From: Prorocentrum cordatum
Taxonomy: Eukaryota; Sar; Dinophyceae; Prorocentrales; Prorocentraceae
Assembly (NCBI GenBank): GCA_963575745.1
Contig: CAUYUJ010020601.1
Location: 1-64,000 of the forward strand
DNA length: 64,000 nucleotides
Direction of reading: 5' to 3'
Shown here: one piece after another, positions 34,290 to 57,989 of the stretch
Numbering within the stretch: the stretch's first letter is position 1
How the letters are laid out: every line of letters begins with the position of its first letter
The notes under the pieces: model-generated
What the model was told of the DNA's origin: nothing
What the model saw: the letters and a program-made list of their open reading frames with translations, nothing else
Databases searched by the model: none
Position numbers and translations under genes: made by a program

Positions 34290-34309
34290 GCCTCCGCTGC
34301 TGCGGAGGG
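34290..34309 (+). repeat. Hairpin copy, arms CCTCCGC/GCGGAGG
   Basis: Non-coding copy between the left end and the EEP gene's last exon. A second copy with longer arms (CCCTCCGC/GCGGAGGG) follows 43 bp to the right at 34,333-34,352. Confidence 0.8.
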
Positions 34310-34332
34310 TCGACGTTCGGCCGATGAGGCCT

Positions 34333-34352
34333 CCCTCCGCTGCTGCGGAGGG
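34333..34352 (+). repeat. Hairpin copy, arms CCCTCCGC/GCGGAGGG
   Basis: Perfect 8-bp arms around TGCT. It is 20 bp right of the last base of the previous copy and 20 bp from the stop of the EEP gene at 34,372. Confidence 0.8.
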
Positions 34353-34371
34353 GCGGCTCCTGTGCGATGGT

Positions 34372-36917
34372 TCAACTAAGCTTTTCCCAGGGATTGGTTT
34401 CGGGGGGGGGTTCGACCCACCTCCAAGTCGTGGTCGCGACCTCCCAGTGCCCCTGGCCGCTACTCCACCCACTGTGGCTGCTCCACCAGTCACTGGGGCG
34501 TTGGTCGCTGCCGAATGCAACTTGCATGTCGCGCCAGGCGGAGTCGACCATGCGGTCCTGCAGCGAGGAAGCCTCGCCGCTCGGCTGTTGCCACTCGCGC
34601 TCCTCGCCCTCCTTGGTGCGCCACCACTCATCCCTGCGCCACTCCTCGTCTGTTGGTTGCTGCCGTGGCGTTTGTGGCATCCGCTGCTGCGGGGGCTCTG
34701 GCGGCTCGTGGCCGAGGGCAGCGATCGCGCCCGAGATGTAGATGGCGGCGCCGCGCTGCCCTCGCTGCTCCAGCGGCGCAGGCCCTGGAGATGGGCACTG
34801 CGGGGTCGGCTGCCACCTGGGGGGTGATAAATAATTATTTCTATATCCCCTCCCTGTCAACTCCCGCCCCTTCCCGACACTCATTTCCTTATGTCATCCC
34901 TCGTCCTGCTCAGCCTATTCCTCATTCCCTCTCCTCCCTCCTGCCCTCCCCGTGCTCCACCGCCCCTCTCCCCCCCTCCCCCTTTCAACCCCCCGCCGCG
35001 ACCTTCCATCGCCAGCCGCGGGCATGTCGCGGCCGTCGTCCGCGCTTTCGTCTGCCCATCTTGGTGGGCGCCACGCCTGTTGGGCGCGCTCGTCTTGCTC
35101 GTCCCTCTCGCTGTGCTGCTCTGGTGCCTGGCGCTCGGGTCCGTGCTGCTCGGGCGGCAGCGGCGCCCTGAGCGCAGCTGCCAGCTGTTTCTGGGCGCGC
35201 CTGTCTTTCTTCTCTTTGGCTCTCTCCTGCTTCCTCCCCGGCGAACGCACGCTGGCCATGCGCATTTGGAACAGGAGAGGGTAGTGGGCGCCGCCGTGCC
35301 AGCGCCCCTCCACCTCCACGGTCTCTGGCGGGAACGTCTTCTGCAACGCGCGGAAGAGGGTCACCTCGCGATTACTAGAGAAGCGGTGGTCCCCTCTAGC
35401 CTCAGCCTCGGCGCGCCTCAGTTTCTCACTCTCCTTCTCTTGGATCTTGCGTTGGCATTCCTCTGACTGAGTCAGTAAATCCTGGAGGTGCTCGCGGGCG
35501 TCTTTTTTCGGGTAGTAGCAAGAGTAAGGCATCCCAGGGCCTCCGTTCTGGCTGTGGTGCCAGTACGTCGGCTGCGATGATGGGCTGGTGGCGGCCCCCG
35601 CTGCTGCGGGGGCCTCTGCCTTGCTTCTGTTACGGTACCCGATCTCACCGATCACCGACTTGCGTGCGAAGAGCAACCCCGTCTCGTCTCTGTCGTGCAC
35701 GGCGCTCAGCGGCCAGCACAGGGTGTACTCGCCAGGCCTGTTGAGAACGAAGATGCCGCAGCTGTCCAAGCACGGAGTGCCGTCCAATCCGCGCCAGAAG
35801 TACGCTGCTGCCGTCTCCAATCGCATGCCTAGACCCCGAAGACTCGGCAGCGTCTGTGTGAGCGCCATGTTGAAATCCCCACAAAGGATGTCAACGCTGT
35901 TGTCCTGCAAGATGGTCGCCAACCTCGGCCACCACGTCTTGTGAGCCTCGTTAAAGCCTCTGGAATTTTTCGCCGTGTCGCGGTGGAGGTGCACCGCGCA
36001 CACCCGCACTTTCGAGCCGAAGTGGGCGTAGGTTTGATCGAAGTAGAGCTCAACCACCATGATCCTCGAGAACGCTTCCATCTTGCGCCCTCTTGCTGTT
36101 CTGTAGTGGCCGTCGACACTCCTTTCCCAGTGGAGCAGCCGCATTTCGTAACACAGATTTGCGCGCGCAGCGATGCACAAGGACTTGTCCTCACGCCCGC
36201 GCAGGGTCAAGTATTCGTACTCTGGTCGATTCTGGAGCTGTTGGCAATCGCCAACACTCGCAGCACGACTTCCTCTTGCTGTCGCCATCGCTGCTGCGGG
36301 GGCGACAAAAGGCCCACCGCTGCTGCTGCTTTGGCCCTCCGCTGCTGACGCCCCGCTGCTGCGGGGGCGTCCGCCTGCAGCGGCGGTGGTCTCCCTGGCC
36401 GCTGTAGGATTGACTCCATCTGCTCCTCACATTCCGCAAAGCACGCCACGAGAGCAGGGCAATGCCGCAGCTGCAACTCAAGTCTCCGCCGCTGGTCCGC
36501 GTGGTTGGTCTCGCTCGGCATGGAGCCCCAGTTCCCGAACAGGACGGAAAGGTTGCCCACGTTGTCGTTCCGTGGCCTGTTCACGTCAGCCGCTCTTCTT
36601 TCGCAGAAGAATTTTGGCGGGACGGTGTCGCGAAGAACGCATTCGCGCCGCTCGACGTCGTTGGGCGGCCTGCAGCCCCTAAATTCCTGAGGCTCTTCGT
36701 CATCGCTCGGATCCACCACGGAGTCGCCTGGGCGGGTGCGCATCGTAGAAACTTCTGATCGCGCCGCCGCTGCTGAGCTTGAGACGCCAGGCGGCGCAGC
36801 CCCCGCTGCTGCGGGGGTGCCCTCTGGCACAAGGGCCCAAGGACCCTTCCAGGGTTCTGCCTGACCACCTACAGGTCGCCAAATCTTCCCAGATTTCGCT
36901 GTGAACACTGCCATCAG
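34372..36917 (-). CDS. Endonuclease/exonuclease/phosphatase-family protein (frameshifted)
   Basis: Two minus frames make one protein. The first (36,917 to about 36,300, start MAVFTAKSGKIW) carries SVLFGNWGSMPSE and ...ACFAECEEQ, matching the EEP opening strand and its catalytic Glu. The second (about 36,280-34,915) carries EYLTLRGREDKSLCI, VCAVHLHRD and the hallmark ILCGDFNMAL (GDFN), then SAVHDRDETGLLF where the family has its final His. A helical, basic, proline-rich tail follows. An intron or break lies at about 34,830-35,030, after which a Trp-rich segment (DEEWRRDEWWRTKEGEEREW ... WRWVEPPPETNPWEKLS) ends at 34,372. Removing the 26-nt hairpin at 36,282-36,307 restores a single frame. EEP enzymes cut phosphodiester bonds (DNA, RNA or phospholipid head groups); in mobile elements they often nick DNA. 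Its role here is unknown. It is the last gene before the left end of the element. Confidence 0.7.
35593..35614 (+). repeat. Hairpin copy, arms GGCCCCCGC/GCGGGGGCC
   Basis: Perfect 9-bp arms around TGCT, inside the EEP coding region, read as APAAAGAA without breaking the frame. Confidence 0.85.
36282..36307 (+). repeat. Hairpin copy at the EEP frameshift, outer arms GTCGCC/GGCGAC
   Basis: 26 nt: GTCGCC, AT, CGC, TGCT, GCG, GG, GGCGAC. The outer arms pair perfectly across a two-base internal mismatch. It lies exactly where the EEP reading frame changes. Its length is 2 modulo 3, and deleting it joins ...AVGLL|ARGSRAASVGDCQQ... in frame. Confidence 0.8.
36349..36373 (+). repeat. Hairpin copy, arms GACGCCCCGC/GCGGGGGCGTC
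   Basis: 10-bp arms with one extra G on the right, inside EEP coding sequence (read ADAPAAAG on the minus strand). Confidence 0.85.
36800..36817 (+). repeat. Hairpin copy, arms CCCCCGC/GCGGGGG
   Basis: 7-bp arms around TGCT in the N-terminal part of the EEP gene (read TPAAAGAAP). Confidence 0.8.
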
Positions 36918-36927
36918 TCGGCCCCGA

Positions 36928-36947
36928 GGCCCCGCTGCTGCGGGGCC
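36928..36947 (+). repeat. Hairpin copy, arms GGCCCCGC/GCGGGGCC
   Basis: Perfect 8-bp arms just upstream of the EEP start codon chosen at 36,917. The same arms recur at 41,819-41,838 and 56,362-56,381. Confidence 0.85.
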
Positions 36948-37116
36948 CAATGGGCTGCTGCTGCTGCTGGCGGCCGCGGCCGTCGCTCCCTGCCCCCGCG
37001 TTGCAGGGGGGGCGGCCGTCACAGCCGAACTCCCGGGGCCGAAACGGCGGCGGAAGGAGGGGGGCGGGGCGAAGAGGAGGAAGACGGGGCGGATAGGGAA
37101 GGAAAGGGCGGGCAGA

Positions 37117-37322
<206 letters not shown>

Positions 37323-37641
37323 GGACGACGATAACGAGAGAGAGAGAGAGAGGGATAGAGAGAGGAATGATATAATGACCAGGAGAGATCAGGGAGAAGG
37401 AGGGGGGAGAGCAGGAGGAGGGGCGGAGTGATCGACACCCGCGTGGTTTTCTCCCCCTGCCTGCTCTCCCCCTCCTCTCACCTCCTCCCCCGCCCCCCCT
37501 CCTCCCTGTTTCTTCTGCGCAAGGCCTGCGCTACGTCCGCGCGCGCACGCGGCACCTCAGTCGCAGGCAGGTGGGAGGAGCAGTGGCTGCTGCCCGAACT
37601 CACACCCCGCGCCTCGCCGCTGCTGCGGCGGGCCGCGCCTC

Positions 37642-40600
37642 TCAGAGGCCCCCAGCTGCAGGGAACGCAAGCGCCAGGGAGCCAGACAGACGGCGTCGCG
37701 TCTCACTGTGCACAAACATGCTGAAAGCTCTCGGGTTGCCCCCCAAGTACTCGTCTATGACGTTCTGCAACCATGTGGCAAACGTCTCCGGCCACTTTCC
37801 ACCGAAGTCCTCCATGCCAGCGGCGTCCCATTCCCGCCGAAACCAGTCAAAATCTGACCGCTGAGCTGCAGAAAGCCCAGAACCCAAAATCGCAAGGCGA
37901 TTCAGCGCGTCGCACCTCGACGTTCGACCCGCCACGCCTCCGCAGCTGCGAAGGCCCGCGCCCAGCTCGGATAACCCGACATGCTTCATCCTGTGTTTGA
38001 TATCTATGGCTGCCTCTGCGTCTAAGAGTTTGGCTTGCTGTGTCCTCAGCAGCTTGCGCGCTTTCTTTACGTCGTCCCCCAGGCGGGTTAGCTCTTCTCT
38101 GCGCCGCGCCTCGACATCCCGCTGTCGTTTCTCGTTTCTGAGCGTCGCCTCGCGGGCGTCCTCGCATGCTGCGAGGGCTCGCTGAACCCCAGGATCTTCC
38201 TTCGACACTTCACGCACTCGCCTCCGTTCTTTCCGTAATTGCGTCTCCATGAACGTGGCCCCCGCGATGTCGCCCCAGCTGCGCAACTCCTCAGCGATCG
38301 ACGAATACGTTCTCATCAATTCAGACGTCTGCTCCGCAGTTTCCATACGAGACGTCGACAGGCCAGGCGGTGCCTCCAGCGCGCTCTCCCCCGCCGCTGC
38401 TGCGGTGAGACTTTGATTGGCCCATTCGTAGTCAAACTCGCCAGCGGCGCTCCACCCGTCGTCGTCCTCGCTCCCATCATCTTCATCTCCTTCGAGGGCG
38501 TCGACGGAATTGCCACCCTCAGTGCCCCCGCTGCTGCGGAGACCCTCGGCTGCGTCTTCCGCCCCCTCCATGCCATGCCAAATCTTGTCGCCCTCGTCCA
38601 GAGCCGCGTCGTCTCCAAGGTTTGCGAACACGTCGTCGCAGTGGCCGCGTCGAGGGCGCGGGAGGACCAATCGCATGATGTCTTTGTAAGTCCATCTCAA
38701 GCGCCCCGCCTGTACCTCTTCTTCGACCTCCGCTACTGCGGCGGCGACCTTCTTACGCATCCCCAACTTTCTCCAGAAATGGCCTGCCTCCTTGCATATG
38801 CGCGCGTCCAAGTCCGCATCCCACAGATTTGCCTTGAAACCAGTTTCCCAGCACCCGTCTGCCGCAGCCAAGTGAAGACTCATTTGGGACATCACTTCCA
38901 CCATCAAGTCAATGCATTCTAACTTGTCCAGCTGTGGGACGCACTGGCCCAGCCTCATGGCTCTCAGCAGCGCGGCTCCTTCTCTCTTCATGTACTCGCG
39001 CTTGGCGTGTTGATTCAGATGTGTGTCCACAGTTTGGAGGATTGGGGTTACGCCGCCCCCGTGCGGGATGAACACGTACCCTCGAGACCAACATAGCTTA
39101 CTCACAAGCGGGGACAAGTGAGGGCCATGATCATCCGCCATCATAATTCTCCACTCCCGCTGCTGCGGAGGCTCTGGCAGATGAGGGAGGTGGCGGTCCA
39201 GGTACGCGAGCACGCACGGTGTCCGGTAAGACCCCTTGGTGCTGGTGGTCGCCGACACCCATCTGCCGAACCCTCGGCGCCGAAGGTGTTCGAGCAGGCG
39301 CGGCCTCAACTTCTCTCCTCCCCCCTCCGCCTTGAACATGCACTCCATCGGTGGGGGGCCTTCTCTCCGCAGTCGATCCTTGTCGCTCATTGTCATGAAA
39401 TTGGCCGTCCACCGCTCCCGCACCGCGCCGTGGCACTCCACCAGTGGCACTTCGACCCCCGCTACTGCGAGGGTCCTCACGCCAGCTGATCCTGTTTCAT
39501 TGTGGTGGAAAGGCGACTGGTCGAAGTTCTCCATCTCGGGATCCTGCTCGTTGAGTAGCACGCACGCGGCGCGCACCCTAAACACGTTCAGCCAGCCTCG
39601 CTCGAGGCGCTCTTCCAAGACGGGCAGCGGGCACTTGTACTTCCTGTTCGGGTACCGCATGCTGAGGCCGTATTCCTTGCGCCAGGAGGCCCACCAGCGC
39701 GACCTCAACTCCACGGCGGCGGGTCGCTGCCCGATCCGCAGCTGCTGCGTGACGTACTCGCTCATGAGCTCCAACGCTTTGGTCTGGAGCATGCTTTGCG
39801 TGAACCTTGCTATCTTCGCTGGCTCTCTTTGGGTACTTCGCAGTCCACTTTTGATCATCTTCCAATCCACACTGTGCCGAATGGAACTCCACCATTCAAA
39901 CAGAGCTTGCCGCAACCAAGGGCATTTTCGAGCTGGGCCCTGTCCCTGTTGTGGTATCCTTTTCCGCCCTTTCCACTTCAGGAGGCGCCCCTGCCCGTGC
40001 TGCTTCTCGTGTCCCCGCGGCTGCCGAACAGCCTCCGCTACTGCGGAGGCGTATTTCGACGACAGAAAAGCCTTGTGCCAGCGCCGCACAACGTGCGTGC
40101 GCTTCCTGAGAGGGAGACGGGACATGGAACCCCAGTCCCACGCATCCATGAATGAACGCGCCCCTCCATACGGAAAGCGGTCTCCAGGCGTCCAGCCTAA
40201 AGAGCGCATGTGCTCGTCGAAAGCACCCGCTATCTCCATCCTCGAGCACAGGAGCGACGGGACCACCACGCGCTTCTTGTTCTGGGCGGGGGCTTTGCGC
40301 TCGCAGCCGCGGTTCCTGTACCTCAAGAGCTGCTCCTCCCGCTCTGCGGGCATCAACTCCCGAGCTACGTCCAGGGCGCACGCAGCGTCTGTCAGTCCTG
40401 TCCACCATTGGATGGCTTGCACGAGCTCCTGACAGACAGCCTCGGCGTCGACTTCCACCACGGCCAAGTCCTCAGGTGGCGCCGCCGCTGCTGCGGCAGC
40501 ACCGCCCTGTGCTCTCGGAGGGGCGGCGTGGCAAGGCTGCGGGACAAGTTCTTCGTCGTCTAAGGCGCTCTGCAGGCGACGAAGCTCCTGAACGTCATCC

Positions 40601-42315
40601 TGCGTGACTTCTTGTGTCAGGACCATCGCGTCGAGGAACCACGCCAGCCGCACCCTTTGCACGATGTAGTCCGCGATGTCCTGGCGGGCGGGCATGGAGG
40701 AGGGGCAAGGAGACTCGGTGGGGAGGGCACGAGGGGAGAGAAGGGCGGGATGGGAGAGGCATGAAGGCAGAATGGGGAGACAAGGAGGGGAAGAGCATGT
40801 GGGGGCAGCAGAGATGGAAGCGAAGGATCAGGGTGGTCGGAGAGAGCAACTGTCCTGGCGGAGCTCCCTGCGAGACTCTCGCGTGGAAACCTCCTGGGTC
40901 ATCTGCAACATGCAATCCAAACCGCAGTCCCCGTCTGCGACTGTGGACACGACGAACACACCGAGAGCCGAATAGAAACCGTCCACCGTCGAAGCATCTC
41001 CCGTGAAATCCACAAAGTCGGTGGAGACGCCTGCGATAAAATGATTGCATCGAAACAAAGGATACTCCTCCGACACGGGGGCCCAGTCCGGTGGCCCCGA
41101 GTCTCGGGGGGCGGCGCAACACGCGATCGCGTCCACCGCAGGCTCGCGGGTTAACTCCTCTAGTTTCCACGGCGGCAAGACAGCTTTGCAAAGGTCGACT
41201 CTGTTGCGTCCTTCCCACGCGTAGACGCGCACCTTCCGCAACAGCGCAAAGATTACGAAAGCAGAATATCCTATCCACTCTCGGCCTCCCCCCGGCCTTC
41301 CGCGAATACTGCGCGACAGCTTCATCAATTTCTCGAAGCACCTCTGGCCTTGTTCTGAAAGTGCCCCTGCAGGCGCCCCCGCTGCTGCGGGGGCGCCTGC
41401 AGGGGCAACCGCAGCGCCTGCTGTCGCGGCTGTCTGTTCACAGGCGGTAACTGCCGCAACTTCCGCCCCTGGAAGCACGGGCTCCGCTACGTCGCGAACA
41501 GCAAGCGGGGCGGGTTGGGGGAAAGCGACAGGGGCAACCTCCTTTGCTGAGAGAGCTGCTGTTGCCGCGGAGTCCTTCAAGACAGACTCCACTGCGGAAG
41601 CGGCCTCGGCGATTGCGTCGGCGCCAGGCGCGCCAGCAGGACCTACGGACGCCTCCGCTGTGGCGGGCTCTGCAGAAGGGCACGCGCACGGCGCCGCCGC
41701 CACTTCAGGAGGAGGCGCGCACGCTTCCGCTGACGCACCCGCTGCTGCGGGGCCGTCAGAAGAGCCCACATACGGCTCCGCTGCCACTTCAGCAGGGGCC
41801 ACGCACGCCTCCGCTGACGGCCCCGCTGCTGCGGGGCCTTCAGCAGGGCCCACCGACGGCTCCGCTGCCGCTTCAGCAAGGGCCTCGCACGCCTCGGCCG
41901 GCGCCTCCGCTGCTGCGGGGGCCCCCGCTCCTGCGGGCCACCCGCCCGCGCATTGCACTAAATGCCAGGGCGCTTGCAAGTCTGACCACTTATTGCAGTC
42001 CTCGGAACCGTCCGCCAGACGATGGTCGCTGGGACACGACCACTGCGAGCAGAAATGAATATTCTTACACATGCGTCTGCCAGAGTCATAATGGCAAGCC
42101 GCGCCGCTGCTGCGGCGCATAACGTACCCGAATCCGAATATTGTCCCCTTTAGTTTCCGTGGGTTCATGAGCACGAAGTCGGGGTCTTTCTTTTTGTCTT
42201 CTTGGTACCAAAACTCCACAAATTCGCTGGCCTCGCGGTCGTGCCCGACTCGCAGAGGCGCGTTTGCAGGGCGAGCGTCTCCTGGGTCTGGAGGCGGAGC
42301 GGCTGCGGCTGCCAT
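37642..42315 (-). CDS. OTU-protease / DDE-transposase fusion protein
   Basis: Exon 1 is 42,315-40,855 and exon 2 is 40,680-37,642, joined in phase 0 by a 174-nt GA-AG intron; 1,499 residues. Start MAAAAAPPPDPGDARPANAP. Residues about 120-330 are Ala/Pro/Glu-rich with repeated EGPAAAG. At about 452-490 lies VVSTVADGDCGLDCML...ESRRELRQ|DIADYIVQRV, the DGDC-G nucleophile motif (Cys464) of OTU cysteine proteases, interrupted by the intron. Downstream is a DDE integrase core: ENFDQSPFHHNE (D874), IMMADDHGPHLSPLV (D1003/1004), ILQTVDTHLNQHAKREYMK (D1039), the D-D-D spacing and context of DDE_1/pogo-like transposases. A Glu/Asp-rich region and a coiled-coil-like C-terminus follow. OTU proteins remove ubiquitin or process proteins; DDE enzymes cut and join DNA ends. 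The fusion would be the mobilising protein of the element. The three acidic residues are present; activity is untested. Confidence 0.82.
39454..39475 (+). repeat. Hairpin copy with TACT loop, arms GACCCxCGC/GCGxGGGTC
   Basis: Outer arm GACCC pairs with GGGTC around a single C/A mismatch; loop TACT. In the DDE domain, read TLAVAGVEV without frame loss. Confidence 0.8.
40031..40050 (+). repeat. Hairpin copy with TACT loop, arms GCCTCCGC/GCGGAGGC
   Basis: GCCTCCGCTACTGCGGAGGC, perfect 8-bp arms, read YASAVAEAV in the OTU-DDE protein. Confidence 0.85.
40681..40854 (-). other. GA-AG introner-like intron with 11-bp flanking direct repeat
   Basis: On the coding strand CCGCCAGGACA occurs at both edges (40,861-40,851 and 40,687-40,677). 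Splicing as CCAG|GACAGT ... CGCCAG|GACATC keeps one copy and joins RRELRQ|DIADYIV in frame. The 174-nt insert is pyrimidine-rich and non-coding. An exact target-like duplication with splice sites inside it is the signature of a recently inserted introner element. The GA donor is one of the known dinoflagellate variants. Confidence 0.8.
41362..41407 (+). repeat. Longest hairpin copy: 21-bp arms around TGCT
   Basis: The arm on each side is TGCCCCTGCAGGCGCCCCCGC or its complement, perfectly paired, 46 nt in all. It lies in the Ala-rich linker of the OTU-DDE protein (read VAPAGAPAAAGAPAGAL) and keeps the frame. Confidence 0.9.
41819..41838 (+). repeat. Hairpin copy, arms GGCCCCGC/GCGGGGCC
   Basis: Perfect 8-bp arms in the EGPAAAG repeats of the OTU-DDE linker. 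Neighbouring copies at about 41,737 and 41,905 suggest that local repeats of a coding unit spread with the hairpin. Confidence 0.85.
42101..42118 (+). repeat. Hairpin copy, arms GCGCCGC/GCGGCGC
   Basis: Perfect 7-bp arms within the 5' part of the OTU-DDE gene (read VMRRSSGAACH). The same hairpin is kept in the duplicated 5' fragment at 43,978-43,995. Confidence 0.85.
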
Positions 42316-43029
42316 GATGCCGAAGCCATGCGCGCGCACGCGCGGCCGCCCTCTGGTCTCGAGCCCAGCGCTGCAGGGCAAGCAAACGGCCGCATCCCCC
42401 CACAAGGAGGATGTACAAGGGGGCGGGAGGAACGAGGAACAAGGGAGATATGCGGGGACCAGCGGACACACGCCTGAAAAAACACGACCGTCGGCATGCT
42501 TCGCGAGGGTTGCTGCTGTGAGATGGGCTGGTGAGGAGGGGCCCGAACGACTCACACCAGGACGAGCGGCCCGAACGACGCGCAGAAAACTCAGAAGCAT
42601 GCGCACACGAACGAACGCCCCGAACGACTCCGAGAACACCCCCCAGAAAACAAGGCCAGAATGTAGGAAGTCGTCGACATCGTCGTCGAGGGAAGGCGAA
42701 CGCGGCACGGGGGATGATGATAGTCTCCTCTTCCACCGTGAAGCAAGAGCCCCCCCCCAAAAAAAAGCGGGCCGCTCGGGCGTTTGTACTAGACGCCAAA
42801 AGTGCAACATCCCTGCAGGCCGCCTCTGCAGGAATTGAGGCGCAGCCCCTCCCGCAGCCGCACTGCGGATGCGCCAGCGGGCGCGGGGGAGCGGCGGTGG
42901 CGCCAGCGCGCAGCTGGTAGCTGTCCCCTCCTCCCCCCCCATCATGGCGATGATGAGAATGATGAGCATCCTACGATGATGAGGCCCTATGTCCTGTCCC
43001 AGAGTCTCGGGCCCCGCCCTGGGCCGCGG

Positions 43030-43142
43030 GCCACGCCCCTGCGACCGTGTTATATATACATACATATATATAAATACACACATATACGTATGTACATACA
43101 TATACGTCGACACACCATACATACACAATATATACATATATG
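43030..43142. repeat. TA-rich interval (TATATACATA type)
   Basis: About 110 bp of TATA/TACA repeats in the 5' region of the OTU-DDE gene. 42,320-43,030, upstream of the chosen start, is probably untranslated or promoter sequence; the open frame there has no protein character. Confidence 0.7.
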
Positions 43143-43247
43143 CATCATGTAATCAGTCAGCGGAGGCCCGACGCCGCCCAAGACGACCGCACGGAGCGAG
43201 AGGCAGAGCGTGCCTCGAGACAATATTTTCTGTTTCTCAGGGGTTTT

Positions 43248-43739
43248 CTATGGTTGGCGACGCGCCGCCACCTGCTTCGCTTTCGATGCGCCCTTCACGG
43301 TTCCGAGGAGATCCGCCATGGGATCCCGACCTTTTTCTCCCGCTGCTGCGGGAGATCCTGCTGCAACCCCCGCTGCTGCGGAAGCGTTTTTCACAGGAGT
43401 CGACGCTTCATCCACGTTGCCTCCTTCTCCGACGCGAAGCTTCCCAAGCACTTGCTCTAACATTGTCGTTTCGTTCAAGGCGCCCTTCACGGCACTGAGA
43501 CCACGGACCACCTTGAGCATGCACAGGCGGTGCTTTCCGACGGGCACGAAGGCTTCTAGGCTTTCCTCGCCGCCAAAGGGAACATAGCGCTCCTCAAATT
43601 CCAGAGCAAATCCCGATGTTCCCTCGTGACTTCGGCACAGTCCGCCCGTCGCGCAGAGCACCCCCATGCTCGCGTCATCTTGGCGCGCTGCTTTCCCGAT
43701 AACGACATCCCGCCATGTTTCCGATGCCTTGCGTTTCAT
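43248..43739 (-). pseudogene. Truncated paralogue of the 334-residue cargo protein
   Basis: Starts MKRKASETWRDVVIGKAARQ and parallels the intact copy at 45,599 (MKRKAEDTWREVAVGKAARQ) through ...MADLLGTVKGASKAK. It then departs: an extra stretch of about 30 bp near 43,245-43,275, absent from the other copy, shifts it into a stop. Three hairpins (43,336, 43,367, 43,754) match the positions of hairpins in the intact copy. Confidence 0.7.
43336..43355 (+). repeat. Hairpin copy, arms TCTCCCGC/GCGGGAGA
   Basis: Perfect 8-bp arms. The aligned position in the tandem paralogue (45,198-45,215) reads TCCCGC/GCGGGGGA, that is, one arm has changed. Confidence 0.85.
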
Positions 43740-43753
43740 GCCGCCGCGCGCAA

Positions 43754-49112: not shown

Positions 49113-49122
49113 CTATCCAGGC

Positions 49123-49142
49123 GCCCCCGCTGCTGCGGGGGC
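49123..49142 (+). repeat. Hairpin copy, arms GCCCCCGC/GCGGGGGC
   Basis: Eleven bp upstream of the start codon of the large unknown gene (49,112), so in its 5' leader. Another copy at about 49,173-49,190 lies further upstream. Confidence 0.85.
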
Positions 49143-49312
49143 AGCTTCCCAAACAGATGTTCCGCGACGGTTGCCCCCGCTGCTGCGGGGCCCCGCTTAA
49201 AGCACGAGTGCCTGTCGCGCGCGCGGACAGAAGGAGGGGCCTCACGGATCCGCGGCCTGCCCGCACTTGAGCAAAAGGAGAAGGAGAGGAAAGGCAGATA
49301 GAGGGAGAGAGA

Positions 49313-49335
49313 CAGAGAGAGAGAGAGAGAGAGAC

Positions 49336-49377
<42 letters not shown>
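49313..49377. repeat. (GA)n microsatellite
   Basis: GA repeats in the 5' region of the large unknown gene. To its right (about 49,466-49,530) are variants of the terminal palindrome (CCCCCTGTGTGAGAGAAAGG and ATCTGTGAGAGAAAGGGG) that have lost symmetry. 49,540-49,880 has no gene. Confidence 0.85.
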
Positions 49378-49382
<5 letters not shown>

Positions 49383-49771
49383 GAACGGCGGGTCGACGCG
49401 GCTTCCTCAGTTTTTCGATGCGCGCACATCCGCCTGAACAGGAGAAGCATTGATACATCGGCCCCCCCCTGTGTGAGAGAAAGGTTGCCCACCCCGAACC
49501 CATCTGTGAGAGAAAGGGGCGCTGTGAGAGTTGCGCGTATGGAAGCGATGATCACTACAAAGACATAATGACGGGCGGGAGGTTGCAGGAGGGAGTGCAA
49601 GGGGAAGCGAAGCAAAGGAGAGAGCAGAACACAGGTGACAGCACAGATGTCGTGTTTTCCCCCACACCGCATGCGATGCCGCACGCGACGCGCAAAACCG
49701 CGCTCCCCCGCGCGCGCGCGAGTGCGCCCCTCCGCCGAGGTCACCCCCCCTCGGCGAAATTCTCGCGACAT

Positions 49772-49791
49772 CCCTCCGCTGCTGCGGAGGG
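49772..49791 (+). repeat. Hairpin copy, arms CCCTCCGC/GCGGAGGG
   Basis: Perfect 8-bp arms in non-coding DNA; identical arms to the copy at 34,333 near the opposite end of the element. Confidence 0.85.
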
Positions 49792-49883
49792 GCGTTCCCC
49801 TTGTGCGCTCGGGATGTCGTGGTCATCCTGAGGACCGTACAATCAACCATGTGGGGGCACTGTCGTGTTCATCCGCCCCGTAA

Positions 49884-50252
49884 TTACATGCGAAGGGGGT
49901 CGGCGCCTTCTTGCCAGGAGCTGCCGACTGGCGGCATCTTGGAACCTAGTTTGTACCACTTGCCCCAATGGTCGCGGTACCAAAGTGCCTGATCGAACCC
50001 ATCGTCATCTTCCACGCCTGTCCTCCGAGCAGTCTTCTCATCCCACAACCCACCACGCTCCAAGACAGCAGGGCTACAGCAGCCCCCGCTACTGCGAGGG
50101 TTTGTTTCTTGGAGCTCGCCTTGCGCCGAGCTAGCGGCCGCGCGGCCGCCTCCGCCGACGCTGCCGTGGGTCGAGCCGCCGCCCCAGCGCGCTTGCTCGA
50201 ATGAGGTCTGTGGTCCGGTTTCCGAAAACCCCTCTTCTCGCCGACGCGGCAT
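49884..50252 (-). CDS. Possible short exon, Trp-rich, unknown
   Basis: The minus frame ends with GLWDEKTARRTGVEDDDGFDQALWYRDHWGKWYKLGSKMPP, protein-like and similar in flavour to the Trp-rich tail of the EEP gene. It includes one hairpin (about 50,083, TACT loop) read PRSSGG. No start signal is clear. It may be an isolated exon or the C-terminus of a gene whose other exons I cannot place. Confidence 0.4.
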   Translation of the reverse strand: MPRRREEGFSETGPQTSFEQARWGGGSTHGSVGGGGRAAASSAQGELQETNPRSSGGCCSPAVLERGGLWDEKTARRTGVEDDDGFDQALWYRDHWGKWYKLGSKMPPVGSSWQEGADPLRM

Positions 50253-50335
50253 CGTCCCGTCCTTGTGTCGGGTTTCCTATTCCTCTTCTCGCCGACGCGG
50301 CATCGCCCGATCCTTGTGTCGGGCTTCCTAACCCT
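50230..50335 (+). repeat. Two tandem copies of a 53-bp unit
   Basis: CTTCTCGCCGACGCGGCATC followed by a short variable part and CCTTGTGTCGGG occurs twice in a row. Confidence 0.8.
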
Positions 50336-50404
50336 CATGGCTGGCGATCTCGAACCCAAACGGCACGGCAGAGATTGGGAGCGGGACAAAGAGGTGACAC
50401 ATGG

Positions 50405-50575
50405 AGCGGGACAGGGGCGGGGAGCCCAGGACGGGCAGCAGGACCGACCACGGGACCGGGACCGGGACCAGCACCCCCGTTCCCGGTCCCGGTCCCGGTC
50501 CCGGCCCCGGTCCCGGTCCCGGTCCCGTGGTCGGTTCTGCTGCTCGTCCAGGGCTCCCCGTCCCTGTCCCGCTCC
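50405..50575. repeat. Fold-back element with GGTCCC repeats at its tip
   Basis: The left arm 50,405-50,467 (GGGGAGCCCAGGACGGGCAG ... GGGACCGGGACCGGGA) is nearly the reverse complement of 50,513-50,575. The tip consists of (GGTCCC)n. Further GGTCCC repeats continue to about 50,640. Confidence 0.75.
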
Positions 50576-50886
50576 CGGTCCCGGTCCCGCTCTCCCCCTG
50601 GTCCCGGTCCCGGTCCCGGTGTCGGTCCTGGCCCCTGCAGGACCCCCCCCCCTCCTCCTCCTCTTGCTCGCCCCCCTTTCCCCCCCAGCAAAAAGCAAAC
50701 GACGACGACGAGCACGGCGACAACGACCGCGATTTCTTCAGCCGCTCAATGCGAGCGCCTGCCTCCTCGCGCGCGCGCGCGCGCGAGCCCGCGCCTCAGA
50801 TCTCTTATGCTAACCCCCGCTGCTGCGGAGACCACCCCTGCGGAGACCACCCCCGCTGCTGCGGAGGTCTCCGCAGCCGCGCGCCG

Positions 50887-53594
50887 TCAGCTGGAGTCGC
50901 TTGAAGGGCTGCGGCGCCGCGACAATGCCTCGAACGCGTCACTGTTGAACGCAAACGTGTCCGCAGGAAGCGGCGACTCCCTGGAGAGGAGCTGCGGCGG
51001 GGGAGGCTGCGGCGGCGGCCTCGGGACGAGCGGCGCTGCCAGAGGGCGGGGCGTCTGCGACTCTCTTGGCAGGAGCCGCTTCGGCGGAGGGTGCGGCGGC
51101 TGGCTCGGGACGAGCCGCGGTGGCGTAGGGTGCGGTGTCTCCTCCAGCGGGGGGGCCCCGCGGCGTCCTCCTCCACGCGGGGGATATGGCGGTGGTGGTG
51201 GCATCATTGGCGGCATGCCTGGCGGACGGCATATCTGGCCTGGGAGGAGCGGGCGCCATGCCCTCGGCCTCAGCATCACCTGACCTGTGTGGGGGGGGTG
51301 CGCGGGCGGCGCGGGCAGGAACCGCCCTGCCCACGCCGCCCTGCGGTCGCCGCCCTCCACCTGCCCACTGCGTCTGGAGCGGCTGCGCCCCCTCTGCTCC
51401 TGCCCTCTGCGTCTGGAGCGGCTGCGCCCCCGCTGCTGCGAGGGCACTCTCCTCATTCGGTCTTTGCTCCTCTGCTCCCGCTTTCTGCGTGTGGAACGGC
51501 TGCCCCCCCGCTGCTGCGAGGGCTTCTTCCTCTTTGGGGTTCTGCTCCTGATATCTTTCTTCTTGTTATTATTCTTCTTCTTCTTCTTGTTTTTCTTCAT
51601 CTTCTCCTTCTCCTTCTTCTCCTCCCTCTCACCTCTGTCAGGGTTGCTCTGTTCGTCCTGGGGCGGCGCGGGGCTGCAGGAGTCGATCCAGAGCGGGGCC
51701 TCGTCGCCCTCAAGCTCCTCCTGGGCTCCGTGCGCCCCCGCTGCTGCGGAGGCTGCTGCTTCAGATTCTGTCTCCGCCTCCTCCTGGTCTCCGTGCGCCT
51801 CCGCTGCTGCTGAGGCTGTTGCTTCGGGTTCTGTCTCCGCCCACTCTCCCCGCTGTTTTTCCCACTTGGCTTCCCGCTTCCGATCCTTCTTCCTGGCCGC
51901 GGCGCCTTTGCCAGACTTCCTGTTCTTGGCTTCTATAAAAACGAACAATGTGTGGCAATGTTCCGTGAGGCGGTTCGCATCCTGGGCCTTGTGGATCACC
52001 CTGTGCAAGTGCGGCCAGTCATATGTATCCTGCTCCTTGCGCTCCGCGTCCGTGAGCCTGACCCAGGTCGGACGCGCCACCCAATCCAACTGGCGGTACT
52101 GCAGGCTGGTGAGGAGCCTCCGCTGCTGCGGAGGCTGGGAATCCTGATTCAACCAGTGCGGCAGATCAGGCTGCCCGCCCGCAGGGCACTCGCGAACCTG
52201 AGCGGGGCCAAGAATCACGATGTAGCGCGGGTGCGTCACGTGACAACCTTTTGTCGGACACCACAAAGCCAAGCCGAGTACGCATGTACCAGACGCGCCG
52301 CAACTTCTGAGCAGCTCCGAAAGATCCTCCCTGCCTGCGTCAAAGATCCCAGCGAGAATACGCACTCGGTTCCACAACGCCAGGTTCCGCAGCCCGTTGC
52401 GGAAGTTCTCGGGCCACGGGTGTCCCGCGAGGCTCGTCTGGTGTCGGAAGAACACGCCCCCACTGCTATGGAGAGTTTGCCTTCCTTTGCTTTCGGATTG
52501 TGAGCCACCGCTGCCAGGGTCACCGACCAGGCCTGAACCAGGAACTTCCCGTGGCAGTGCCAGCGAAGCACCTCGCACTGCTCGACGCGCTCGGGAACCC
52601 AGAGGAGAGCCCCGACGCACTCGCGCGCGACCTCCCCGTGGAAGCCACTTTGGCGGATGAGATCGTCGAGATGTTGCTTCCGCCGATCGCGATTGATGCG
52701 TGCACCAGGCTCGAAGGAGACTAAGACGACCCCTTCGCGCCTGTCCCTGACAGCTGCGACCCAATCCGACAGGGAGGCGCCCGCGCGCAGGACGAGGGAA
52801 GCAAAAGCCAGATTCACGCGCGCCTCTGTCTGCCCCTCCTGCACCTGGTCTTCGTCGTCGTACAGCAGGGGCACAAGAGGCTTGGAATGGCTCGGGCCGC
52901 GCTCTTCCGATGGGAAGTGCGGGCGGCCTTCCTCTGGGAAGCCCTCTTGGACAGGAAGCGCTGGCGACCGAGCCTTCGAGGTCAAGGCGAGAGTCTTGAT
53001 CACGCGGGCCCCCGCTGCTGAAGAGGAGCTTTCACGCGGTTTGCGCGCTGCGATCAGAACCTGCCGTTGTCGCCAATTAGTCGTGCAGGGAGATCTCGGT
53101 CTCGGGTCATCGGAGCCACCCTGTCCAGGCTCGATTACCACTGTGGCGGCGCCTGGCTCCACGGATGCCCCCGCTGCTGCGCAAGCCGCCTCCTCAGCCG
53201 TTATGACTGCAAGGCGGTTGGCGGCGGCCGTTAACTTCCGCGCATCTTCGATCCGGCCATTCTGCATCAATTCCTGAGCAACCAGAAGGCTCTGCGAAAC
53301 GCTTTCCTGGGCACCAGACATCGACGAAAACAATGACCGCAGTTTCGTTGCAACCTCCCCCCCCGCTGCTGCGGAGGCCGGTGCTGGATCTGCCATTCCA
53401 TGCGGAACTGCATCAGGGGCCTCCTCTGGCAGCCCCCGCTGCTGCGGAGACTTCGGCAGAGGTTCCTGCGCGGCTCCAGTCGCGCCAGGCTGCTCCATGC
53501 CCTGGGCCGCCCCCGTCGCGGAGGCGGGCGGGCGCGGCGGGGGGCAGACCTGCAACGGCTGCGGATTCACTTTATCGCAATGCCATCCCTCCAT
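50887..53594 (-). CDS. RS-domain cargo protein of unknown function (single frameshift)
   Basis: Two minus frames overlap. The first starts MEGWHCDKVNPQPLQVC at 53,594, a short Cys-containing N-terminus. It changes frame at a G-run near 52,456, where one base more or less joins KLSIAVG to GVFFRHQTSLAGHPWPENFRNGL. The globular core spans roughly 52,850-52,000 (VPLLYDDEDQVQEGQTEARVNLAFASL; ALLWVPERVEQCEVLRWHCHGKFLVQAW; LRNLALWNRVRILAGIFDAGREDLSELL). The C-terminal third is low-complexity: acidic/Ala repeats, a Lys/Asn run, then RS repeats (RSRTPKRKKPSQQRGGSRS, RGRSRSRRRGQEQRGRSRS) and a proline-rich tail. RS domains usually act in RNA processing or nuclear localisation; here that is inference from composition. 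Hairpins at 51,426-52,136 provide many of the PQQRG and SQQRG units. Confidence 0.62.
51426..51445 (+). repeat. Hairpin copy, arms GCCCxCGC/GCGxGGGC
   Basis: One C/A mismatch at the fourth pair; in the RS-rich region, read PSQQRGRS. Confidence 0.75.
52115..52136 (+). repeat. Hairpin copy, arms AGCCTCCGC/GCGGAGGCT
   Basis: Perfect 9-bp arms, in coding sequence (read SQPPQQRRLLT). Confidence 0.9.
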
Positions 53595-54465
53595 GCGCTC
53601 AAATGACTTTTCCCCTTGCGCCACTCTGCTGCTCCCACTTCTGAACTACCTCATCCCTTCTACCTCTGCCTGCTCCCTCCTCTTCCTGTTCAGTCCTCCC
53701 TCCTCCCTCCAACGCGCTCATTTCTCCTTGCTCCCTTCTCTGCTCCTCCTACGTGGGGCGTTTCACGACAACGACGACGACGACGCCGACGAGAACGATG
53801 ACCACGACGGCGACAACGAGGGCGACGACGACCACGACGACGACGACGAGGGCGATGACCACGACGGCTACCAGCGACGACGACTAGCGACGACGACGAT
53901 CGACGACGACGACGCCGACCACGACGACGACGGCGAGGACGACAACGAGCGACGACGACGACGACAACCGACGCCGACGAGGAACGACGACGACGAACGA
54001 GGACGACGATTACGACGACGAGATGACGAAGGATCGAAGATCGAACCTCGAAGTGCGAAGCTTCGAAATTCAAACTTCGATCTTCGAACTCCGAACTTCC
54101 AGCTTCTAACTGCGAACGTCGCTGGGGTGCCAGGGATGGACTGGGATGGAGGGAAAATGGGAAGGAAAAGCGAGGAAGCGGGAGAGGAAGTTGGAGGAGA
54201 ACGAACAGGCGTGGAGCGACGAGGAACGGGCGGCGAGGAGCCGACGTTGAGGGCGGCGGGATGGGGGGACAGGGAGGAGAGGGGAGACTTCAAAACGAAA
54301 ATCGCGCCACGGCGCCTGCACGCGCGCTCCCGATCTCGGCGGCCGACGCGCGCGCCCCTGCAGAAATGCAACGCGCCCTTAATTCGAGCCCCGCTGCTGC
54401 GGAGCCACCTACTCCACAACCAAATCGTCTGGGGAGCTGTTCGGACCCCAAACTACTAATTAGTT
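53425..54465. repeat. 1-kb direct duplication, copy 1
   Basis: Matches 55,322-56,315 over most of its length in the same order: hairpin and TTCGGCAGAGG, the CTACGTGGGGCGTTTCACGA block, a 250-bp (CGA)n/(GAC)n tract, the CGAAGTGCGAAGCTTCGAAA series, and the AACCAAATCGTCTGGGGAG end. Its left part is the 5' end of the RS-domain gene; the rest is non-coding. Confidence 0.85.
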
Positions 54466-54473
54466 CTTCAGCC

Positions 54474-54840
54474 ACTCGGCTCTTGCGAGTCCGCCCTCAT
54501 GACAAAGGGCAACCTTCACATGGGGACACTCAATGGGGTGTTGATTGAGAACGCCCCATGTGGCTGGTGGCAGGAACGGACGAGGGGGGGCGGATAGAGG
54601 AGCAGGACGAGCACTGGCAGGGGATATGCACCAGGAGAGAGATCTCATGGAGGAAGAGGAGGGGAGGGGACGAGAGCCACTCATAATTAAGCGCACGCAG
54701 GCCCACGCACGTGCCCCATTTCTCAGCGACCGCCGCGCCGCCATGAGAACTGTCGTACCACCGCCGCTAATGCGGCGGATGCGTGACCTCTCCCATCCCT
54801 GTCCTGCGCTGTTTCTGCTACCGCCCTCCCCCCTTCCAGC
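54474..54840 (-). pseudogene. Rearranged fragments of the large unknown gene and its 3' flank
   Basis: 54,474-54,575 matches 48,053-48,165 (translated LNQHPIECPHVKVAL versus LNQLPIDCPHVKVAL). 54,590-54,840 matches 46,240-46,490. The two pieces are joined in the reverse of their order in the source gene, so they were not copied as one colinear block. Confidence 0.7.
54761..54778 (+). repeat. Hairpin copy with TAAT loop, arms CCGCCGC/GCGGCGG
   Basis: CCGCCGCTAATGCGGCGG. The homologous position in the other copy of this segment (near 46,415) reads ACACTACTGCGGCTG, unpaired, so the palindrome was gained or lost after duplication. Confidence 0.75.
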
Positions 54841-54996
54841 CAAGCTCGGGTTTCATGCTCGGAGACGGGCGCGGCTGGCGGCTCTTAGTGCGGGTGCGCG
54901 TGCTGCCTCCAACTCCTCATCCCCCTCCTCCTCCTCTCCTCATCCCCCCTCCTCTTCCTCCTCGTCCTCCTCTATCGGCCCAGCTCCGATCGCCGC

Positions 54997-55308
54997 TCAG
55001 CTCCCCTGGTGCGGCTGGCGGCAAAAGTACCGAATATTGCCTGGGATGTCCTTCACCTTCTTCTTCGACATCTCAAGCATCATCTTGCCCATCTCCTCGG
55101 TGCGGCGCGCCTCCTCCATCATCTGCCGCGCCTGGTCGACGAGCATCTGGCCCTTCACTCCAACGGCGCGTGCATGGCGGCAACGATTGCGCCACTGGAG
55201 AAACCGCGCCACCATGGTCGCCCAGTGCCAAACACTGCCCTCCGTCGTGATGAGCTCGAAGTCATCGACGTCGTACTTGCCCGCGATGCTCGCCATAGCG
55301 GCGCACAA
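54997..55308 (-). pseudogene. Coding fragment between the duplicated blocks, unknown family
   Basis: A 103-codon frame with good protein character: SIAGKYDVDDFELITTEGSVWHWATMVARFLQWRNRCRHARAVGVKGQMLVDQARQMMEEARRTEEMGKMMLEMSKKKVKDIPG, the second half a long amphipathic helix. In a different frame, the sequence just upstream encodes the same N-terminus as the RS-domain gene (EGWKCDKVKPQPLQVC). It may be a second, frame-broken gene of that type. Confidence 0.5.
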
Positions 55309-55321
55309 ACCGCGAAGGAGC

Positions 55322-56315
55322 CTCCTCTGGCAGTCCCCGCTGCTGCGGAGACTTCGGCAGAGGCTCCTGCGCGGCTCCAGTCGCGGAGGCGGGCGGGCGC
55401 GGCGGGGGGCAGACCTGCAACGGCTGCGGCTTCACTTTATCGCATTTCCATCCCTCCCTGCACTCACATGGCTTTTCCCATTGCGCCAGTCTGCTGCTCC
55501 CACTTCTGAACTACCTCATCCCTTCTACCTCCATCTGCACCCTCCTCTTCCTGTTCAATCCTCCCTCCTCCCTCCACCGTGCTCATTTCTCCTTGCTCCC
55601 TTCTCTGCTCCTCCTACGTGGGGCGTTTCACGACAACGACGACGACGATGACCACGACGGCGACAACGAGGGCGACGACGACCACGACGACGACGACGAG
55701 GACGATGACCACGACGGCGACCAGCGACGACGACTAGCGACGACAACGACCGACGACGACGACGCCGACCACGACGACGACGGCGACGACGACAACGAGC
55801 GACGACGACAACGACAATCGACGCCGACGAGGAACGACGACGACGAACGAGGACGACGATTACGACGACGAGATGACGAAGGTTCGAAGATCGAACCTCG
55901 AAGTGCGAAGCTTCGAAATTCAAACTGCAACCTTCGAACTCCGAACTTCAAACTTCGAACTGCGAACTTCGCTGGGGTGCCAGGGATGCAATGGGATGGA
56001 GGGAAAAATGGGAAGGAGAGAACGAGGAAGCGGGAGAGGAAATTGGAGGAGAACGAACAGGCGTGGAGCGACGAGGAACGGGCGGCGAGGAGCCGACGTT
56101 GAGGGCGGCGGGATGGGGGGGCAGGGAGGAGAGGGAAGACTTCTTTACGAAGATCGCGCCACGGCGCCTGCACGAGCGCCCCCGATCTCGGCGGCCGACG
56201 CGCGCGCCCCTGCAGAAATGCAACGCGCCCTTCATTCGAGCCCCGCTGCTGCTGCGGAGCCATCTACTCCGAAACCAAATCGTCTGGGGAGTTATTCGGT
56301 CCCAAAACTACTGTT
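55322..56315. repeat. 1-kb direct duplication, copy 2
   Basis: Second copy of the block at 53,425-54,465, offset about 1.86 kb. The (GAC)n tract is slightly shorter, and the hairpin at 56,238 has gained one CTG, opening its loop. Confidence 0.85.
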
Positions 56316-57453
56316 TGCCACCCGCTGCTGCGGACGCCGAGGGCCTGGTGCTGGACGCCGCGGCCCCGCTGCTGCGGGGCCCCTGAGAGGGCGTCGGCCT
56401 CCCCTTCTCTCTGGCGGCGTCGAACTTGACCTTACGCTCCACACCGAGGTCCTTGTGCCAGCGAAAAGTTCCTGACCCGTCGCTCCCGCCCAAACCCGCG
56501 GTTGGTGGCCTCACCGTGTCCGCGTGGGGGACGAGGGGCAGAGCTTCGACCTTCCTGTCGCCCCAGTGCGGGTGTAAACGGACGCCTGTCCCGTCGTCGC
56601 GGTGCAACACGAAATCCCACATCGGCAGCTTCACTTTCACCCGCTGCCCCGCGAACTGTCGCGCGCGCACAATACTCTGACGCATGTGGTCGTAGCTGTT
56701 TGGCCGGACTTCGAGGGAACAGCCGATCAGAGCCCCGCTGCTGCGGGGCCCCTCCACGACCTCCCTGATATCTTCCTCCCTGAGCGTCGCCACCATCTCT
56801 TGCCACCGCCAAGGGACTTCCTCGTCGCTTTTGAAACCAAAGCTCGTCCTCGCACCGTGGTCGCAAACAGCGACCATGGTGGGCTTCGCATTGTCAAACC
56901 ACTTGGCTTCTGACTCGAACGGGGCAGTTGGGTCTTCATTCAGATGGCGCCACCATTTCAACGCTCGATTGTGTTGCTTAAACGAAGTGCCGAGCCTCTC
57001 TTCATAACTCAAAAAAGAATTAACATCAAACTTCTCAAAATCCTGGGGCCCGCGCGCCGCCGCCGCTGCGGTGGCGCGGGGCTCCTGCGCCGCAGGCGCG
57101 GCTCGGGATCCCGACCCCTCTCCTGAAACTGTGTCCCCAAGTCCTGGTACGTTTCGGAGGGCAGCCCTCACGAAATTATCGAATTCGGGCTTGCCGAGAC
57201 CAGGGGCGCGGGGGCTCACAACGCTAAGCGCGGCGAAGCGAGACGGCCGTTGAGACGAGACCGCCGCCGCTGCTGCGGCGGCAGGGCCATCGCGCCATTT
57301 GGCGTCCTCCGTTGGCGTGTGCCCGTCTTGTCGCCAGTCTCTCCAACCCCTCGCTGACCAATCATGGCCGTCCTCCCAGCCACGCCAGCCGCTGCTGCGG
57401 CTATCCCACCATCCTCCCGCGCCATCCCATGTGTATCCGCCTGCATCGCCCAT
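56308..57453 (-). CDS. 381-residue cargo protein of unknown function, first gene of the element
   Basis: Complete frame from MGDAGGYTWDGAGGWWDSRS to the stop at 56,308. The N-terminal 50 residues are Trp/Gly/Asp-rich (GWRGWEDGHDWSARGWRDWRQDG). Ala-rich linkers arise at hairpins (57,273, 57,387). The central and C-terminal domain (DFEKFDVNSFLSYEERLGTSFKQHNRALKWWRHL; FGFKSDEEVPWRWQEMVATLREEDIREVVEG; VKVKLPMWDFVLHRDDGTGVRLHPHWGDRKVEALPL) looks globular. It resembles nothing I can name. Start chosen as the first ATG after which composition becomes protein-like; the frame upstream toward the right end of the element is repeat-derived. About 450 bp of leader/promoter separates it from the terminal palindromes. 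Confidence 0.7.
   Translation of the reverse strand: MGDAGGYTWDGAGGWWDSRSSGWRGWEDGHDWSARGWRDWRQDGHTPTEDAKWRDGPAAAAAAAVSSQRPSRFAALSVVSPRAPGLGKPEFDNFVRAALRNVPGLGDTVSGEGSGSRAAPAAQEPRATAAAAARGPQDFEKFDVNSFLSYEERLGTSFKQHNRALKWWRHLNEDPTAPFESEAKWFDNAKPTMVAVCDHGARTSFGFKSDEEVPWRWQEMVATLREEDIREVVEGPRSSGALIGCSLEVRPNSYDHMRQSIVRARQFAGQRVKVKLPMWDFVLHRDDGTGVRLHPHWGDRKVEALPLVPHADTVRPPTAGLGGSDGSGTFRWHKDLGVERKVKFDAAREKGRPTPSQGPRSSGAAASSTRPSASAAAGGKQ
56362..56381 (+). repeat. Hairpin copy, arms GGCCCCGC/GCGGGGCC
   Basis: Perfect 8-bp arms near the C-terminus of the first cargo gene (read QGPRSSGAA). A copy with the arms GCCCCGC/GCGGGGC lies at 56,732-56,749 in the same gene (read EGPRSSGALI). Confidence 0.85.
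57273..57292 (+). repeat. Hairpin copy, arms GCCGCCGC/GCGGCGGC
   Basis: GCCGCCGCTGCTGCGGCGGC, perfect arms, read GPAAAAAAVSS. Confidence 0.85.
57387..57402 (+). repeat. Right-most hairpin copy, arms AGCCGC/GCGGCT
   Basis: Perfect 6-bp arms close to the start of the first cargo gene (read GGWWDSRSSGW). No copy was found to its right. Confidence 0.85.
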
Positions 57454-57988: not shown

Positions 57989-57989
57989 G

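Follow-up and report, generated by a model that had tools for sequence, protein, structure and literature searches.

The question raised by the DNA considered here, the first 64,000 nucleotides of Prorocentrum cordatum contig CAUYUJ010020601.1 (assembly GCA_963575745.1; hereafter the window), is why a single block of it should carry dozens of small hairpins in one orientation, with a nearly fixed top set on arms that differ from copy to copy. Inverted repeats of 31 bp enclose the block, which is a mobile element, and we regard the hairpin observation, together with this identity of the block, as virtually certain. The function of the hairpins is a matter of interpretation. The reading developed below, to which we assign a probability of about 0.5, is that they are family-specific RNA hairpins whose fold and loop are selected and which a putative partner would read as a label of transcripts from this element.

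Hairpin cores and the element that carries them

Exact matches to CGCTGCTGCG occur 51 times on the + strand of the window and not once on the - strand, all of them within 34,295-57,399, and four further copies of the form CGCTACTGCG (at 38731, 39460, 40036 and 50087) agree in orientation and bring the total to 55 strict hairpin cores. The figure of nearly 60 copies given in a first-pass annotation of this DNA is reached only when degraded copies are included. That annotation had also placed the motif always in the mRNA sense, and this is borne out: the long open reading frames (ORFs) of the block lie on the - strand, on which every strict core reads CGC-AGYA-GCG (55/55 sense, 0 antisense). With up to one mismatch allowed, matches to CGCTGCTGCG on the two strands number 79; 100 dinucleotide shuffles gave 9.8 ± 3.3, and none of them reached 79. 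Among the CGC-NNNN-GCG sequences on the - strand of the block, the loop is AGCA in 51, AGTA in 4 and GCGC in 8, and every other loop occurs at most twice. The hairpins are spaced at a mean of 428 bases and somewhat more evenly than at random (coefficient of variation 0.75 versus 0.97; equally even in 1.4% of simulations).

The limits first assigned to the block need correction, since it naturally extends to the inverted repeats that end at 33,936 and 58,020. These repeats, TAATCCAGAAGCCGCATTAAAGTGATCATTT, are identical and occupy 33,936-33,966 and 57,990-58,020. In the genome (4,128,499,153 bases in 21,875 contigs) there are 299 exact copies of TAATCCAGAAGCCGCATTAAAGTGATCATTT and none of the reversed sequence used as a control, and the matches listed, for the first 100 places, include at least 11 facing pairs that lie 22.8-24.4 kb apart. 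The flanks differ between 11 such elements, the window's included; at these occupied sites TA, a putative target duplication, stands at both ends in 11 of 11, with no longer flank in common. No exact core occurs in the rest of the window, and at 30 element ends 81 cores were counted within 1.5 kb on the inside (45 kb) compared with 1 within 1.5 kb on the outside (45 kb), 27 of the 30 ends having at least one core inside. The cores are thus far from equally dense in unrelated DNA, and the confinement to one block that the annotation had reported has a reason that it missed, namely that the block is a transposon.

A 1,017-aa protein encoded by the element has at least 45 copies in the genome at 98-100% identity, and in the 45 scored, of 8,466 candidates, the reading frame is open in every case, from which we conclude that the element family has spread recently; a later genome search for the family of this protein found a stop in 3 of the listed matches. 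The protein models as a mariner-type transposase, with an RNase H-like DDE/D catalytic domain in its predicted structure, and terminal inverted repeats, here 31 bp long and identical, are likewise a feature of the IS630-Tc1-mariner group. We read the element, at 24 kb, as a giant transposon of the cut-and-paste kind whose transposase is of mariner type. It adds a large member to a known group, the novelty lying in its set of hairpins.

Arm pairing, coding context and relatives

The five positions on each side of CGC/GCG vary in their letters between copies, yet they pair. Of the 275 arm cells in the 55 copies, 245 pair (206 Watson-Crick and 39 sense G.U), whereas arms re-dealt among copies give 165 + 35; a further 12 cells are of the A.C type, and 18 fall into none of these classes, where 61 would be expected. 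Consecutive Watson-Crick pairs in 51 copies sum to 139 versus 83 ± 8.7, a value as high being found in 0 of 10,000 right-arm shuffles, and with sense-strand G.U allowed in all 55 copies the sum is 237 versus 147 ± 10. The corresponding z is 8.7 with sense G.U, 6.7 with antisense G.U and 5.7 with no G.U. The copy-specific, self-complementary arms of the annotation therefore withstand the comparison with shuffled controls that it had proposed, with the reservation that pairing is incomplete in some copies (the 18 cells that are neither paired nor G.U or A.C). Excess pairing is seen at arm positions 2-5, position 1 being nearly invariant, and position 6 pairs at chance (14 versus 14.0), so the usual stem has 8 bp. 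There is a weak excess at positions 8, 9 and 11 (p 0.03-0.07), and the copy at 41380, with a perfect stem of 21 bp, is an exception to the usual length. In predicted folds the core hairpin is formed by 52 of the 55 copies.

As first described, copies occur in genes and between genes: coding stretches with homolog support contain 22 of the 55, a further 20 fall in other long ORFs of the sense strand, and 13 are elsewhere. Cores are read in all three frames, as AAA, RSSG and PQQR types, and four coding stretches hold 22 cores where 0.55 are expected from synonymous-codon shuffles that keep the protein and the codon use. An origin of the cores from codon runs or low-complexity sequence was rejected, since three frames are used and the synonymous shuffles fall far below the count observed. 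In the 1,017-aa ORF all three AVA peptides are written GCAGTAGCG, although this ORF uses GTA for 7 of its 57 valines and GCA for 22 of its 115 alanines. Where homologs span them, two of the sites, LAVAG and AVAEV, align with no insertion or deletion and yet are written GCAGTAGCG, so at these places the hairpins came about through substitutions while the protein was constrained. The earlier view that insertion of a fixed repeat cannot give copy-specific pairing is upheld at least at conserved protein sites, where plain insertion is disfavoured. The presence of hairpins in coding and other sequence, and in all three frames, argues that it is at the level of nucleic acid that they act, RNA being the likeliest form.

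A relative, NHDG01000044.1 (L001), encodes a homolog of the 1,017-aa protein that is 35% identical; it is filed as a Planctomycetia metagenome-assembled genome, yet carries a eukaryote-type element and is presumably a eukaryotic contaminant in that assembly. The sequence CGCAGYAGCG does not occur in L001. It carries instead a second hairpin family, CGCAATNACG, with the loop CAATNA, in 22 sense and 0 antisense copies spread over coding and other sequence; in its arms position 2 covaries (17 pairs versus 11.0 expected), and position 3 is near-invariant and pairing stops there. The conserved LAVAG site reads CTC GCA GTT GCG GG in L001 and CTC GCA GTA GCG GG in the window, the GTT form being the older loop type, and L001 has two copies of CGCAGTNGCG, both sense. 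In the vicinity of a PQxR site, the window element and L001 each have a hairpin of their own, two residues apart in the alignment.

Translated in three frames, CCGCAGTNGCGG gives xAVAx, RS[RGCS]G and PQ[SLW]R, peptides that can be counted in more distant proteins (for the PQxR type, Q was allowed at x, and P, S or A in front). In 62 homologs there are 321 AVA-type peptides versus 9.4 in shuffled proteins, 127 RS[RGCS]G versus 5.0 and 45 of the PQxR type versus 10.0; x is R, G, C or S, as predicted for NGC codons, in 127 of 153 RSxG peptides, and S, L, W or Q in 35 of 41 PQxR peptides. In 84 proteins compared with their reversed sequences, the counts are 340 to 73 (AVA type), 150 to 8 (RSxG) and 52 to 24 (PQxR type). 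The other two conserved genes of the element (Table 1) behave similarly for RSxG, with 18 versus 1.0 in 16 homologs of the first and 5 versus 0.2 in 6 homologs of the second, the latter having 0 PQxR versus 0.5; by eye, the GPRSSGAL site of the first gene becomes RSRG, RSGG or RSCG in more distant homologs. Protein P0076 has no signature peptides. A search of the Prorocentrum genome with the distant homolog P0010 found, among the matches listed (42 candidates scored), only the window's own family, 46% identical. To judge from these peptides, hairpins built alike but with different loops are probably present in relatives, the loop being AGTN in many of them; in DNA, AGTN is represented by the four AGTA sites of the window and the two AGTN sites of L001.

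Readings of the hairpins

Selection for the fold very probably maintains the hairpins. Between 30 near-identical copies of a 6-kb part that holds 17 hairpins (gaps counted as differences), differences per site and copy amount to 0.0010 in the inner stem, 0.0037 in the arms, 0.0044 in the loops and 0.0140 elsewhere. A 7.9-kb deletion derivative of the element (L084), about 4% diverged and with 14 hairpins, has changed at 0 of 84 inner-stem sites, 3 of 140 arm sites and 2 of 56 loop sites, compared with 253 of 5,976 in the rest. No clear compensatory change of a pair was seen between element copies, which are too little diverged. Of the three mechanisms that the annotation had left side by side (selection for the fold, template switching at quasi-palindromes, and an insertion or extension that copies flanking DNA into the opposite arm), selection is favoured by the fixed stem length, the higher z with sense than with antisense G.U, the use of three frames and the excess over synonymous shuffles. 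Template switching ranks low because it would be expected to leave arms of varied length, and most stems stop at 8 bp. A broader version of this rival, in which mutation or conversion, including copying from hairpin to hairpin, makes and spreads the hairpins in the absence of any selection on the fold, could draw on the 21-bp perfect stem and on locally duplicated hairpin copies, but G.U pairs are tolerated, the hairpin top is kept with rare codons at conserved protein sites, the orientation is strict and loop changes are common to a whole element, and we consider it very unlikely. Still more improbable is that small mobile hairpin inserts, like the bacterial palindromic elements found in genes, have piled up in the element; the many copies, in frame and in alanine- or serine-rich linkers, might invite that idea, but arms differ among copies that share a single orientation, and LAVAG and AVAEV have gained no residues.

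Hairpins working on one strand as single-stranded DNA, for example in replication or excision of the element as in the folded one-strand sites of integrons, would also be strand-specific, confined to the element and present both within and outside coding regions, and sense-strand G.T pairs suit single-stranded DNA no less than RNA. Against this stand the modelled mariner type of the transposase, a class that acts on double-stranded ends, the small derivative without a hairpin described below, and the fact that the hairpin strand is always the strand of the long ORFs; we take such a DNA role to be unlikely, and action as RNA to be the more probable. It is somewhat less improbable, though still doubtful, that the hairpins bind a host factor instead of a protein of the element, such as an RNase III or another protein that binds double-stranded RNA and reads AGNN loops, and that the element exploits this factor or is its target. 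AGNN is the loop class read by yeast Rnt1p, and the window loops (AGCA 51, AGTA 4) as well as the AGTN loops suggested by the peptides all fit it. The loop CAATNA of L001 falls outside the class, however, Rnt1p substrates need longer stems, and it is hard to see why an element should maintain 55 sites for a factor hostile to it.

According to the RNA-tag reading that we prefer, the element would carry, across its whole sense strand, hairpins with the near-fixed top CGC-AGYA-GCG on five further pairs of free sequence; the sense RNA would fold into these hairpins, and a protein, coded by the element or by the host, would bind their tops at many sites per transcript. Such binding might single out the transcripts of the element itself for export or translation, for local assembly or packaging, or for protection from host silencing, and loop and partner may drift together between element families. 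Several observations weigh against this reading. Predicted energies choose no strand in the window (sense lower in 30 of 55, higher in 24 of 55), and the mean for the L001 hairpins is lower on the antisense. Fourfold sites in the 30 copies show no clear constraint, with 10 differences at 86 hairpin sites and 171 at 1,048 sites outside, a comparison that has no power. A 217-bp derivative (L085, 63-279) consists of both repeats and element ends only, with no hairpin, which means that not every insertion requires hairpins in cis. Alanine-run peptides in the 84 proteins show only a weak excess over reversed sequences (164 versus 116), and P0003, although 72% identical, has few signature peptides. 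The fourth loop base deduced from peptides is mixed within homologs (93 of 271 same-loop pairs versus 83 ± 8 shuffled), in line with the free N of the L001 loop and at odds with a simple picture of one loop per element. No hairpin-binding protein was identified, and the structure model of the second gene (predicted local distance difference test score 39.8) was too poor and was left unused.

At its widest, and only as a tentative proposal, the reading extends to a giant mariner-type transposon superfamily of marine protists with a family-specific RNA hairpin code across its sense sequence, in which proteins would be re-coded to hold dozens of sites, the loop would drift with its recognition protein, and the hairpins would serve as a self/non-self tag, possibly for ribonucleoprotein assembly or export. 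The usual picture of cut-and-paste DNA transposons is that they move as DNA and ask little of their RNA except that it be translated. With a selected hairpin every 430 bases or so, whatever the gene or frame, the RNA of this element would carry a second message. Such an arrangement would explain why many plankton proteins that lack annotation contain unusual alanine-valine-alanine and arginine-serine repeats, would supply naturally occurring RNA tags and, presumably, binders to match them, and bears on the persistence of giant elements in dinoflagellate genomes; the one-orientation, fixed-top hairpins are also a possible new way to find such elements.

Element features and known systems

Table 1. 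Features of the element in window coordinates; all hairpin rows derive from the arm-pairing analysis of the 55 strict cores
Feature	Position	Strand	Remark
whole element with terminal inverted repeats, 24,085 bp	33936..58020	-	long ORFs and hairpins read on - strand
left 31-bp terminal inverted repeat, begins with TA	33936..33966	+	
right 31-bp terminal inverted repeat, identical to left	57990..58020	-	
transposase part, 1,017 aa, mariner-like catalytic fold, 7 hairpins	37642..40695	-	predicted structure
upstream part of transposase gene, presumed intron between, 5 hairpins	40858..42333	-	homologs P0002, P0004
second conserved gene, ~750 aa, 5 hairpins	46861..49112	-	
first conserved gene, 5 hairpins	56308..57438	-	
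hairpin	34290..34309	-	
hairpin	34333..34352	-	
hairpin, arms poor	34677..34696	-	
hairpin	35594..35613	-	
hairpin, arms poor	36284..36303	-	
hairpin	36349..36368	-	
hairpin	36799..36818	-	
hairpin	36928..36947	-	
hairpin	37613..37632	-	
hairpin	38390..38409	-	
hairpin	38524..38543	-	
hairpin, AGTA loop	38726..38745	-	
hairpin	39153..39172	-	
hairpin, AGTA loop	39455..39474	-	
hairpin, AGTA loop	40031..40050	-	
hairpin	40481..40500	-	
hairpin, 21-bp perfect stem	41362..41407	-	
hairpin	41735..41754	-	
hairpin	41819..41838	-	
hairpin	41903..41922	-	
hairpin	42100..42119	-	
hairpin	43336..43355	-	
hairpin	43366..43385	-	
hairpin	43754..43773	-	
hairpin	43977..43996	-	
hairpin	44599..44618	-	
hairpin	45196..45215	-	
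hairpin	45226..45245	-	
hairpin	45614..45633	-	
hairpin	46598..46617	-	
hairpin	47074..47093	-	
hairpin	47137..47156	-	
hairpin	47646..47665	-	
hairpin	47929..47948	-	
hairpin	48367..48386	-	
hairpin	49123..49142	-	
hairpin	49173..49192	-	
hairpin	49772..49791	-	
hairpin, AGTA loop	50082..50101	-	
hairpin	50813..50832	-	
hairpin	50849..50868	-	
hairpin	51426..51445	-	
hairpin	51504..51523	-	
hairpin	51734..51753	-	
hairpin	52116..52135	-	
hairpin, arms poor	53167..53186	-	
hairpin	53359..53378	-	
hairpin	53432..53451	-	
hairpin	54387..54406	-	
hairpin	55333..55352	-	
hairpin	56318..56337	-	
hairpin	56362..56381	-	
hairpin	56731..56750	-	
hairpin	57263..57282	-	
hairpin	57385..57404	-	

Nine ORFs had no Pfam match at 0.01, and a sequence search of solved structures returned one match only, unrelated and with an E of 0.33. 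The ORF at 34915-36288 (-) contains an ILCGDFN motif, which we take to resemble endonuclease/exonuclease/phosphatase domains, although Pfam found nothing there; that at 50887-52764 (-) has an arginine-serine-rich stretch, and its product is a possible candidate for an RNA-binding protein of the element. Ahead of the transposase part, at 41.0-40.86 kb (-), stands a DGDCGxD motif, also present in homologs P0010 and P0011, which presumably resembles OTU-type cysteine proteases (a candidate only). Arrays of the palindrome CCCCCTCTGTCACAGAGGGGG lie just inside both inverted repeats and in mid-element (33975-34060, 57878-57986 and 45955-46064), and there are internal duplications of 84-89% identity at an offset of ~1.9 kb (53415-54457/55316-56312, 43203-43873/45090-45734 and 42023-42397/43900-44276). 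Outside the element, a 2.7-kb array at 15686-18355 holds ~295 copies of the 9-bp unit GCTCATAGG.

Within the window, no Rfam family reached its gathering score, no tRNA was found, and an approximate pattern of the dinoflagellate spliced leader had no match with up to 3 mismatches. Among viral contigs (A1, 26 stretches; A2, 71 stretches) there was no relative, and the exact 20-mer of the hairpin had no match. A search of the open-access literature in one library found no precedent for such a hairpin set in transposons.

Typical IS630-Tc1-mariner elements measure 1-5 kb and have one gene, whereas the element in the window has 24 kb, several genes, a long part upstream of the 1,017-aa part and the hairpin set. 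The RPE palindromic elements in Rickettsia genes are inserts of set sequence; the hairpins resemble them in lying in frame within coding sequence and differ in their copy-specific arms and in occupying conserved sites without added residues. Dinoflagellate introner elements (PMC10666404) have short inverted repeats near intron ends. Short inverted repeats in a dinoflagellate-type genome are common to both cases, but the hairpins of the window are not located at intron ends; they lie within ORFs and are retained in the coding sequence.

For the hairpin set, the best analogy is found in viruses such as MS2, picornaviruses and hepatitis B virus, whose dispersed RNA packaging signals are many stem-loops of one sense in coding sequence, with a common loop motif and free stems (PMC6281560). 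The carrier in our case differs in being a DNA transposon, there is much less degeneracy in the loop and upper stem, and no particle or coat protein is known here. The likeness lies in the plan itself, many sense-strand stem-loops that share a loop motif on variable stems.

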